A stretch of 36,867 bases of DNA. It comes from Patescibacteria group bacterium. GTDB lineage: Bacteria > Patescibacteriota > Patescibacteriia > 2-12-FULL-60-25. The position numbers and the translations under genes are program-made. Shown here in pieces: positions 5,503-29,248 of the stretch. The notes beneath the pieces were generated by a model, which was not told the origin of the DNA, searched no databases, and saw nothing but the letters and a program-made list of their open reading frames with translations. Numbering within the stretch: position 1 is the stretch's first letter; the number at the start of each line of letters is the position of its first letter. Where the stretch lies: the NCBI GenBank assembly GCA_018830865.1, contig JAHJRN010000030.1:1-36867 (forward strand). Direction: 5' to 3'.

Positions 5503-6342
5503 ATGGAGTACCCCCAGCCCGAGAGGGGAATGTACAGCTCGAAGCGCCTCGTCCAACAGAAATCGAGCCACACGTTCGTCATCGCCCTCGTGATGGCGTT
5601 CGCCGTCATAGGATGGGCGTGGTTCTTTTTTTCTTCCGGATTCTGGAACATCGCTGAAGTGGACATCGAGGGTCTTCGCTCATTGGAGAGGGGAGAGGTG
5701 CTCGAGGAGACCTACCGAATCATCGATACCAGGGGATGGAGACCGTGGAGTACGAGGAATCTACTGATGATGGATACGATGAAGCTTGGAATCGCATTGA
5801 AAGAGCGGTTGTTCATTGAAGACGTGGTTGTGGATAAGTCGTATCCAGATGTTTTACGACTCTTGATTAAAGAGCGTCAGAGGAGTGTGGTCTTAGTGTC
5901 GAATGATCAGTACGTCAATATAGATGCCTCCGGTATCGTCACAGATAATGTCGAGGGAGACTCTCTGCGCGCATCACAGGACCGTGTCGCCGCCCGCGCG
6001 TTCGCTGACGAAATCCATTCGCTTGTCATCGTTATGCAAACCGCGGATCCGTTAGCTCCTGGATTCAAGGTCGCTGAGGCCGAGGACGTCAGGCGTTGGA
6101 TGGATGTCGCAAGGGCTTTGGTCCTAGGGGGCCTTAAAATTCGTTTTATGAAGATTCAGACCCCTCAGGCATCCTTGGGACGCTTTGTGAGCGAACGAGG
6201 CTACGATATCTATGTAGACCTAAAAATGCCCGTAGAGCCTCAGATAGCGACGTATCAGGCATATATGCGGTCTCAGCCTGATGAATCGCAGATTAAGGAG
6301 CATATGGATATTCGTATATCTGGACAGGTCATCATCAAATAG
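5503..6342 (+). CDS. ftsQ: FtsQ/DivIB-like cell division protein (POTRA)
   Basis: A 279-aa single-pass membrane protein. A basic cytoplasmic N terminus is followed by one hydrophobic helix (about residues 25-48). Then comes a POTRA-like start 'FWNIAEVDIEGLRSLERGEVL' and a segment resembling the FtsQ beta domain ('VVDKSYPDVLRLLIKERQR', 'YVNIDASGIVTDN'). Family members link the FtsBL complex to the divisome. It is the last gene of the lysS-alr run, 4 bp after alr. From about codon 90 on, base use is clearly more AT-rich than in its neighbours, and this continues into the gap after the gene. The FtsQ assignment rests on topology, motifs and the alr neighbour. Confidence 0.75.
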   Translation: MEYPQPERGMYSSKRLVQQKSSHTFVIALVMAFAVIGWAWFFFSSGFWNIAEVDIEGLRSLERGEVLEETYRIIDTRGWRPWSTRNLLMMDTMKLGIALKERLFIEDVVVDKSYPDVLRLLIKERQRSVVLVSNDQYVNIDASGIVTDNVEGDSLRASQDRVAARAFADEIHSLVIVMQTADPLAPGFKVAEAEDVRRWMDVARALVLGGLKIRFMKIQTPQASLGRFVSERGYDIYVDLKMPVEPQIATYQAYMRSQPDESQIKEHMDIRISGQVIIK

Positions 6343-6770
6343 AGGATTTATTGGGGTTTGGTGCGCAAGAAAGCTAAGAGATCGGCGTTTTGAGGTATGC
6401 CAGATACCCCGAATTGGCTAAAAAGCTTCTAAAGGGTTATTTGAAGTACCCCATGTGTCTCATAAGGTATATTGTGCGACGCATAGTATTTTTAGACTCA
6501 GAGCCCCGTTTAACTCCCCTTCCCCACCGTATAAAATCGAAATTTTCGATCGTCGTCTTTTTGTACCTACGTAGTTACTACCCCGTAACGTACCTACGAA
6601 ACGTTTCTTCCTATGCCGCCCTTCGTCCGTTTCGCCCGTTACATTCGAGTGTATCGTGACTTTGACACGTCTGTGTACAGTGACAGAATTGCCTATCCCC
6701 TCTTGTTGGCTAAGTTTAGCTAAAAATATTAAGATTGTTTATGTTTTGACATGATATATGTCTGTTATTC
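6343..6770. other. AT-rich intergenic region without a convincing gene
   Basis: About 430 bp of lower GC than the rest. An 89-codon frame (6390-6659) has no start context and no protein-like composition. Visible elements are a perfect palindrome ATCGAAA-T-TTTCGAT near 6534, a GTTAC/GTAAC hairpin with a repeated GTACCTACG near 6564-6600, and two isolated TTGACA hexamers (6662-6667, 6746-6751) without good -10 partners. I see no tRNA or known RNA signature. Confidence 0.5.
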
Positions 6771-6799
6771 TTGACAAAAAGGCAAAAATGTGATATTGT
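6771..6799 (+). promoter_or_regulatory. Strong sigma-70 promoter before a structured transcript
   Basis: TTGACA at 6771-6776 and TATTGT at 6794-6799 with a 17-bp, A-rich spacer. The predicted start is near 6806. It is one of the two best -35/-10 pairs in the window; the other is at 16168-16196. No long gene follows directly, and the transcript first runs through two strong hairpins. Confidence 0.75.
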
Positions 6800-6868
6800 A
6801 CACATCGAGTGCTTCAAAATAGTCGAATCGTAGTTGATACCAAAAAGTGGCACGTTTACAAAGGATTT

Positions 6869-6940
6869 CGACCTGAAGAACGGAGCGGGCGTTTCCGTTC
6901 GTCAGGTCGGACTTTCTCCGCCATCCGTCAGTTCGGCGGA
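6869..6940 (+). other. Two strong consecutive RNA hairpins (leader or small RNA)
   Basis: Bases 6869-6884 pair with 6894-6909: 15 of 16 positions, one A/G mismatch, 9-nt loop. Bases 6917-6922 (TCCGCC) pair with 6935-6940 (GGCGGA). Both lie about 60-135 nt after the predicted start of the 6771 promoter. No T-run follows, so neither is a simple terminator. They could be a regulatory leader of the ORF at 6969 or part of a non-coding RNA. Confidence 0.55.
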
Positions 6941-6968
6941 TCGTGCGAGGAAGTCAGAGAGACGGTCA

Positions 6969-7244
6969 ATGAAAAGATTTACGGTCAGCGCTGGTGGATT
7001 CCGGGTCGTCTCGAATAGGCCCTCCATCATCCTCATCGTCGCCGATGCGATGAGGGGCAAAGGTCTCCGACCCGAAGTCGAGGGATGTTCGTCAGCGGAG
7101 CTCTGCACCGACCCTCCGTCCTGGGGCGCGTTGATGCGGACCAGGGGAGAGACGGTCGTGATGGAGAGCCCGGACATTCCGCCCTTCATCATCTCGAAAA
7201 TCGTGACCGGAGATATGTCGGTCGTCGGTTTCCTCGTCCCGTAG
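6969..7244 (+). CDS. Hypothetical 91-aa protein
   Basis: ATG 6969 to TAG 7244 gives 91 residues beginning 'MKRFTVSAGGFRVV' and ending 'TGDMSVVGFLVP'. The composition is balanced, with a hydrophobic strand near residues 20-27. The frame is open upstream to a TTG at 6834, but that part overlaps the strong hairpins and reads poorly. Only a weak purine stretch (GAGAGA) precedes the ATG. The stop codon lies in the 3-nt loop of a perfect 7-bp hairpin (7235-7241 with 7245-7251). I do not recognise the protein. The alternative is that 6806-7293 is a non-coding RNA. Confidence 0.4.
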   Translation: MKRFTVSAGGFRVVSNRPSIILIVADAMRGKGLRPEVEGCSSAELCTDPPSWGALMRTRGETVVMESPDIPPFIISKIVTGDMSVVGFLVP

Positions 7245-7262
7245 CGGGACGCCCGGCCACTT

Positions 7263-7293
7263 GAGCCGCCGGGATACCAAAGGGCTCTTTTTT
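7263..7293 (+). terminator. Probable intrinsic terminator of the 6771 transcript
   Basis: GAGCC (7263-7267) pairs with GGCTC (7283-7287) and six T residues follow (7288-7293). The 15-nt loop is long, so the call is moderate. A second hairpin (CCCGGC at 7252 with GCCGGG) overlaps it. Confidence 0.45.
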
Positions 7294-7294
7294 C

Positions 7295-7981
7295 TTATCC
7301 TTTCACTGGCGGATCAGGCGGAATGATGTTGATGTCCCACCAGGCCTTGATGCTGGATGCGAGATCACGCGCCCAGAAATACGTGTTGCGTCGATAGACG
7401 TGGCGGTCTGCCGTGACGCCGATGGCGTCGATGCCGAACGCGTTGCAGAGATACAACGCGCGTCCAAGATGGAACCGTTGCGTCACGACAACGGCCGTTT
7501 CGATATGCAGGACCTGGGCCGCGCGTTTACAACTCTCATAGGTCCGGTATCCCCTGTCGTCGACGATAATATGCTCCCACGGCACGTCCGCCGTCGTCAG
7601 ATGGTCCCGCATCGAGGCAATCTCATTCACATGAAATCGTCCATCGTCGCCCGTGATGAGGATGCGGTCCACCGTACCGTTGCGGTAGAGGTCGAGGCCC
7701 GTGTCGAGGCGGTCGCGTAGGGCGTCGGACGGCGTGCCATCCGGGAGGATAGAGGCGCCGAGGACGATGGCGACGTCCGCGGACGGGACCGAGGTGACGT
7801 TCGGGGCGAAGATGCGGCCCGCATACGTCAGTTGCACCTGCGCGAGGATGACCGCAAGGATGGCGAGCGACACGAACACGACGCCAAGTGCGACGAAGAC
7901 GGTCTTCAATAGGACTCCTCGGCGACGGGTGGTTGTCGCCGCGATATCCGTCGGAATCACGTCTTGAAGCTCGTCGTTCAT
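7295..7981 (-). CDS. DUF218 (SanA/YdcF-like) membrane-anchored protein
   Basis: A 228-aa protein with a cytoplasmic N terminus (about 25 aa), one transmembrane helix (about residues 26-50) and a DUF218 domain outside the membrane. Family motifs seen are 'ADVAIVLGASILPDGTPS', 'ILITGDDG', 'MRDHLTTADVPWEHIIVDDRGYRTYESCKRA' in part, and 'VVVTQRFHLGRALYLCNAFG'. SanA-type members are linked to envelope barrier function and vancomycin tolerance; the biochemistry is not settled. Its ATG overlaps the rmuC stop by 4 bp (ATGA), so the two are translated from one message. Confidence 0.85.
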   Translation of the reverse strand: MNDELQDVIPTDIAATTTRRRGVLLKTVFVALGVVFVSLAILAVILAQVQLTYAGRIFAPNVTSVPSADVAIVLGASILPDGTPSDALRDRLDTGLDLYRNGTVDRILITGDDGRFHVNEIASMRDHLTTADVPWEHIIVDDRGYRTYESCKRAAQVLHIETAVVVTQRFHLGRALYLCNAFGIDAIGVTADRHVYRRNTYFWARDLASSIKAWWDINIIPPDPPVKG

Positions 7982-14860: not shown

Positions 14861-14938
14861 GGTGCGTGTACCAAGGGGTTTTGTTTCCGATCCGTCCCTA
14901 TTTTGGGGTACGAACAGAAAGGTCGGCTGAACCGTGCG

Positions 14939-14988
14939 ACCACTATATCTTGTGGTCGCTTTCGCAGTATACCACGAGATGTAGTGGT
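14939..14988 (-). promoter_or_regulatory. Pair of NrdR-box-like palindromes around the nrdJ promoter
   Basis: Two palindromes with ACCAC...GTGGT ends lie at 14939-14956 (ACCACTATATCTTGTGGT) and 14971-14988 (ACCACGAGATGTAGTGGT). Their starts are 32 bp apart, about three helical turns. Known NrdR boxes are 16-bp palindromes of ACACTATATMTTGTGT type that occur in phased pairs before RNR genes. A (-) strand -10 (TATACT, 14971-14966) lies in the spacer, so a bound repressor would cover it. nrdR itself is not in the window. Confidence 0.8.
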
Positions 14989-15050
14989 CGCAGGTCCATG
15001 AGATACTCCGACGCTGTGGATAGGATTCGAAAGGACGATTTTGCGGGGAC

Positions 15051-29207: not shown

Positions 29208-29248
29208 TGACACAAAAAGACGAGGCTTAGCCTCGTCTTTTTGTGTCA
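29208..29248. terminator. Perfect 19-bp palindromic terminator after the cold-shock gene
   Basis: Bases 29208-29226 pair perfectly with 29230-29248 over a 3-nt loop (TTA), with A5 and T5 tracts inside the arms. It lies 13 bp after the cold-shock gene stop and can work in both directions. Confidence 0.9.

Follow-up and report, generated by a model that had tools for sequence, protein, structure and literature searches.

A short segment of the window (the whole stretch of 36,867 nucleotides analyzed here, contig JAHJRN010000030.1 of a Patescibacteria group bacterium) carries two strongly folded hairpins directly before a 91-codon frame, and we read this unit, with moderate confidence, as a short mRNA in which a cis-acting structured 5′ leader precedes the gene for a small protein specific to its lineage. 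The hairpin segment resembles the 3′ part of a large structured RNA in related genomes and so appears to be a genuinely conserved element, not one that arose by chance. An earlier note on this DNA had seen here either a previously undescribed small RNA or the structured leader of a small protein, a proposal supported by covariation with one relative (genome G004) and by the position of the start codon.

Two abutting hairpins in front of a start codon

The module consists of hairpin 1 (6869 to 6909, forward strand; 17 bp) and hairpin 2 (6910 to 6955, forward strand; 46 nt with 19 bp and the motif GAGGA in its 3′ arm), with no unpaired base separating them; both are identified by folding, by their match to a covariance model described below, and by covariation. 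Hairpin 1 is present at the position given in the earlier note, which had counted 16 bp in it, while the second stem placed there at 6917 to 6940 exists but was understated, being part of the full 46-nt hairpin. Together the hairpins span 93 nt, with a folding energy of −53.5 kcal/mol; the 100-nt segment at 6861 has a z score of −6.3 (100 shuffles), which places it in about the lowest 0.5% of 736 test segments taken from both strands with 20 shuffles each, for which that fraction lies below −6.0. Strong structure in the unit is concentrated 5′ of the frame, with the exception of one stretch near 7081 (z = −3.3), and positions 6834 to 6968 are not coding-like by codon-use score; the earlier note had described structure as concentrated in the first third, where coding potential is poor. 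The last pair of the leader lies 13 nt upstream of the start codon of the frame (6969), and no good Shine-Dalgarno sequence was found between hairpin 2 and this ATG.

The succession of promoter, folded leader, and start codon close behind the last hairpin is shared with known structured 5′ leaders (riboswitches, ribosomal-protein leaders, and thermometers), but the unit differs from these in that no Rfam 15 family matched in the window at the gathering score. The one notable match below threshold, an S15 leader over 6702 to 6809 (20.9 bits against a cut-off of 39.5), lies mostly upstream of the predicted transcript, has no rpsO behind it, and was rejected. Elsewhere in the window, a strong inverted repeat occurs at 14935 to 14992 (22 nt, 91%), and the test segment at 14901 has the lowest fold z score of all those tested; a perfect inverted repeat at 29208 to 29248 (20 nt) resembles a bidirectional terminator.

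Compensatory changes in a second genome

We built a single-sequence covariance model of the two hairpins (R1) and ran it on 41 genomes of the family, seven of which had a match at E ≤ 10, the window's own genome (G000) included. The only convincing match besides the window was in G004 (contig C14, positions 59 to 173; 58.5 bits, E = 1.7e-10), the next best among the other genomes reaching 24.9 bits (E = 0.019); the matches in G030, G033, G029, G007, and G025 (E = 0.019 to 7.8) were not accepted. Covariation in relatives, which the earlier note had named as the check on its reading, is found here: when the window is compared with G004, none of the 71 countable cells is unpaired, and both partners have changed in 10 of the 36 pairs. 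On each of these two measures, a single shuffle among 500 scored as high, and slid structures keep 34 to 47%. Because this two-sequence alignment was fitted to a structure drawn from one of its rows, its paired percentage leans, and it is the compensatory changes rather than that percentage that we take as the evidence. The hairpin 2 region is 76% identical over 55 nt, and the linker before hairpin 1 shows no significant similarity (2,311 of 5,000 shuffles as good).

Within 25 nt downstream of hairpin 2, G004 has a strong purine-rich ribosome-binding site and an ATG, the contig ending 58 nt past the module; abutting hairpins directly before a start codon are found in both the window and G004. 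A model of the two module sequences together (R3) matched 4 of 380 genomes of the class at E ≤ 0.1, of which we accepted two, namely, the window's genome and G004. The matches in G007 and G164 were rejected, that in G007 lying inside a DnaJ-like frame and neither locus having a core motif.

The 91-codon frame and its predicted protein

The frame at 6969 to 7244 (forward strand) has a codon score of 0.248; of 260 wrong-frame chunks, 1.9% score at least this high, and of 52 real-gene chunks, 19% score lower. Its GC3 is 0.76. Its codon use looks genuine, and the frame may be translated; the earlier note, which gave the same 91 codons, had called it weak. The stop codon TAG is the loop of a perfect 7-bp hairpin in the predicted fold (7235 to 7251, forward strand), as previously claimed, yet the window has eight such hairpins with 7 bp and a 3-nt loop.

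We read the predicted 91-amino-acid product as a small, lineage-specific protein; no convincing relative was found in 41 family genomes, 380 class genomes, or the genome, viral, phage, and plasmid collections. Among the family genomes, matches were limited to the protein itself and one in G013 that the 96-genome search described below also gave (2 of 41 at E ≤ 0.01), and among the class genomes to the protein itself (1 of 380 at E ≤ 0.001); the genome contig and viral contig collections and the plasmids returned none, the phages returned a single match at an E value of 0.3, and a sequence search of the PDB gave nothing under an E value of 0.1. AlphaFold2, run without an alignment, gave a pLDDT of 35. 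A search of 96 genomes yielded a match at E ≤ 1 in 15, self included, and the non-self places inspected (L022, L023, L024, L025, L030, and L036) were taken as chance. The best of these, L022 (E = 0.00165), falls in a compositionally biased frame of 71 codons that lacks a start codon upstream of the matching part; at L023 and L024, longer genes overlap on the opposite strand, the match at L025 falls inside a gene that reads as KsgA-like from its sequence, and the frame at L036 is broken by a stop. A resemblance to Csx3 (PF09620) was attractive by eye in a multiple alignment; it was not significant in hhalign (E = 0.072), 54 and 2 of 100 shuffles were as good against two profiles, and neither Pfam nor PADLOC gave a Csx3 profile match.

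Promoter and 3′ end of the predicted transcript

The TTGACA-17-TATTGT promoter of the earlier note is present at 6771 to 6799 (forward strand), with 10 of 12 consensus matches and a TG before the −10 element. A half-window consensus scan found 6 sites against 6.2 expected in shuffles, so that a consensus match alone proves little; the TTGACA-17 layout is also seen in the RNAs of five relatives (see below). The whole unit folds at −209 kcal/mol (z = −3.4). The terminator, which the earlier note had called probable, is weak: a T6 run at 7288 to 7293 follows bases that could form a GAGCC/GGCTC stem around a 15-nt loop (feature at 7263 to 7293, forward strand), and a terminator scan reported none in this region. 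Searched as DNA against 57 genomes, the unit recovered short pieces only, many of them covering the promoter.

A large structured RNA in related genomes

In G004, the two-hairpin module ends a structured leader of approximately 600 nt (z = −8.2, 20 shuffles), and a stretch with 73% identity lies in a similar leader in G013 (z = −10.7, 20 shuffles). A covariance model of the core, built from G004 (R2), had matches at E ≤ 0.1 in 9 of the 380 class genomes, and those in G004, G013, G258, G028, and G002 were accepted; the weak matches in G169, G172, G166, and G086 (E = 0.02 to 0.09) were not among these. All five core RNAs contain GTAGTANCGAGTGC and four contain GTCGCTACTAC. Across the five, 92.3% of 155 cells are paired and 18 of 33 pairs are changed on both sides, with none of 500 shuffles as high, and RNAalifold predicted 90 pairs for four of the leaders, 50 of which have changes on both sides. 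Every core RNA also has a purine box (GGAGAGAG or a similar sequence) and, no more than 70 nt downstream, a pyrimidine run with which it could form 7 to 10 bp. Each leader is divergent from a TrmB-type regulator (5/5) and has a TTGACA-17 promoter 371 to 632 nt upstream of the core.

The genes behind the core RNA differ among the loci, being Csx3 and AAA in G028 and G002, an AAA-Csx3 fusion in G258, and DUF3228, a MoxR-type AAA, and VWA in G013. Csx3-AAA is present in 2 of 41 family genomes, both of which have the core RNA (Fisher test, 0.007 on 41 genomes and ∼0.02 by hand on the 24 family genomes in the R2 output). At L189, L191, and L190, the Csx3/AAA genes (split in two loci and fused in one) lie behind the large RNA and its TrmB-type regulator. 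A frame for a 23-residue hydrophobic peptide (positions 2304 to 2375 of L177) follows the G013 leader, behind a third hairpin that is also in G002.

The large RNA is apparently uncatalogued. Rfam gave no credible match to the G004 and G013 leaders at E ≤ 1, scans of viral sequences with core and hairpin patterns gave none, and neither phages nor plasmids matched the G004 leader; a DNA match to phage CRB2 covers 29 nt inside a terminase gene and was dismissed as chance. A literature search for structured RNAs in this group, its coverage mostly excluding subscription journals, returned nothing matching the element. With exceptionally large structured RNAs such as GOLLD, ROOL, OLE, and raiA, the RNA shares a length of several hundred nucleotides, a very stable fold, and a purine-run box able to pair with a downstream pyrimidine run; it differs from them in having no credible Rfam match and in its place between a TrmB-divergent promoter and varying genes.

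The unit as a short form of the large RNA

R2, which describes the core (the GUAGUANCGAGUGC ... CAGUCGCUACUAC stem), finds nothing in the window at E ≤ 10 and nothing in G000 at E ≤ 0.1. Where the RNA is predicted to begin, there is a possible short core stem (CGA-G-UG ... UA-G-UCG; 6806 to 6825, forward strand), in which CGAGTGC and AGTCG stand in the same order as in the inner stem of the core and are paired likewise by the minimum-energy fold. When the 69-nt stretch was shuffled 20,000 times, the CGAGTGC..AGTCG seen at 6806 arose in 2 of the shuffles, a figure for a pattern that was picked after seeing the family. This small stem is a possible remnant of the core stem of the larger RNA, and the window seems to hold a short form made up of promoter, inner stem, two hairpins, and start codon.

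We also entertain, as a speculative and unlikely extension, that this short form is the minimal version of a new Patescibacteria RNA family that has conserved contacts between purine and pyrimidine runs, is driven from a TrmB-divergent promoter, and heads operons of exchanged genes, Csx3-AAA ring nuclease genes included; in that case, the RNA would serve as the invariant sensor of a stress or defense island, and the form at dif would be a stand-alone derivative that has a small effector of its own. Ring nuclease genes of the Crn3 type (Csx3-AAA) follow the core RNA at three of the five loci; the window's genome has none, and the 91-amino-acid protein is not significantly Csx3-like. A covarying RNA family at the head of varying operons, some with Csx3-AAA, would offer a testable entry into regulation or defense in reduced genomes.

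Proposed mechanism and alternative explanations

We propose that a sigma-70-type promoter starts transcription near 6806 and that the first ∼150 nt fold into the small stem and the two end-to-end hairpins (6869 to 6955), which could stack on each other. The hairpins may set ribosome access and message stability, most likely in cis and perhaps by folding and unfolding around the GAGGA of hairpin 2; the simplest options would be occlusion of this GAGGA within the hairpin and protection of the 5′ end. We favor a cis-acting leader because the module precedes start codons in two genera.

That same placement in both genomes bears against a stand-alone structured RNA that acts in trans as a shortened member of the large RNA family, with the frame incidental or minor. 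Such an RNA would fit the very high structure of the large RNAs in G004 and G013, the distance from promoter to core, and a 91-amino-acid protein without relatives, but the coding-like codon use of 6969 to 7244 and the concentration of strong structure before the frame, save near 7081, also argue against it; we consider it the leading alternative, though somewhat unlikely. The unit might instead be a decayed, nonfunctional remnant of a larger RNA-plus-cargo cassette beside dif, in keeping with a genome that has neither a full copy of the core by R2 search nor a Csx3-AAA gene and with the varying content of the stretch between dif and DUF218 among relatives. We find this quite improbable, as the two hairpins have kept all their pairs while their sequence changed, and promoter, frame, and T run stand in order. 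That two hairpins precede an ordinary orphan gene by chance, with a spurious G004 match, is very improbable given the wide gap between that match and the next genome, the identity of the hairpin 2 region, and the ten compensatory pairs, even though the partner is a single genome and structure models can be drawn to hairpin-rich sequence.

A variable stretch next to a dif-like site

The predicted mRNA lies between an upstream FtsQ-like gene (5503 to 6342, forward strand; POTRA_1 at E = 0.0068 and 17.1 bits, below the Pfam cut-off of 23) and a convergent DUF218 (SanA/YdcF-like) gene identified by domain match and family search (7295 to 7981, reverse strand), conserved neighbors present in 36 and 38 of 41 family genomes, respectively. 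The stretches from the left gene toward DUF218 range from 131 to 8,607 bases and differ in content among relatives; the part that matches across the examined gaps is a dif-like 28-mer, GTGTCTCATAA-GGTATA-TTGTGCGACGC (XerC arm, center, and XerD arm; 6455 to 6482, forward strand). It was found on the same strand, with 0 to 8 mismatches, in 33 of 33 examined gaps. These come from the window, from 29 relatives in which a single contig carries both genes, and from 3 that have just the left gene; the remaining 8 of the 41 family genomes were split, had no match, or were left out, the uncounted ones including G009, G016, and G059. Since the dif-like site is conserved beside the unit and the content of the stretch varies, we place the unit in a variable stretch next to this dif-like site.

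The inverted 11-6-11 layout is that of XerCD dif sites such as the one in E. coli. The 28-mer resembles these sites in its layout and inverted arms and differs in that it adjoins the transcript as a neighbor and lies outside it. Its length, inverted arms, noncoding nature, and conserved position agree with the criteria for dif sites in PMC2731167. Within the window, the next best places have 10 to 12 mismatches; the genome itself is a 1.14-Mb draft in 76 contigs. The exact pattern occurs in 26 stretches of the genome contig collection, with one match each, and the titles of 24 of these name Patescibacteria lineages, the other 2 reading only "bacterium." A literature search for dif in this group, again with most subscription journals outside its coverage, returned nothing on the element. 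The dif-like site, conserved family-wide, offers this group a stable landmark that probably marks the chromosome terminus.

Two further features of these stretches were observed. Long inverted repeats and an apparent extra half-dif occur just before dif at L113 (G027), L114 (G012), and L125 (G060), possibly as accessory sites or traces of Xer-using elements. The dif-DUF218 stretches at L101 (G013), L105 (G025), and L125 (G060) encode a common family of ∼137-residue proteins, unrelated to the window's protein, in which the motifs W-L-x-x-L-A-G, K-Y-G-P-D, and P-P-P can be recognized by eye.
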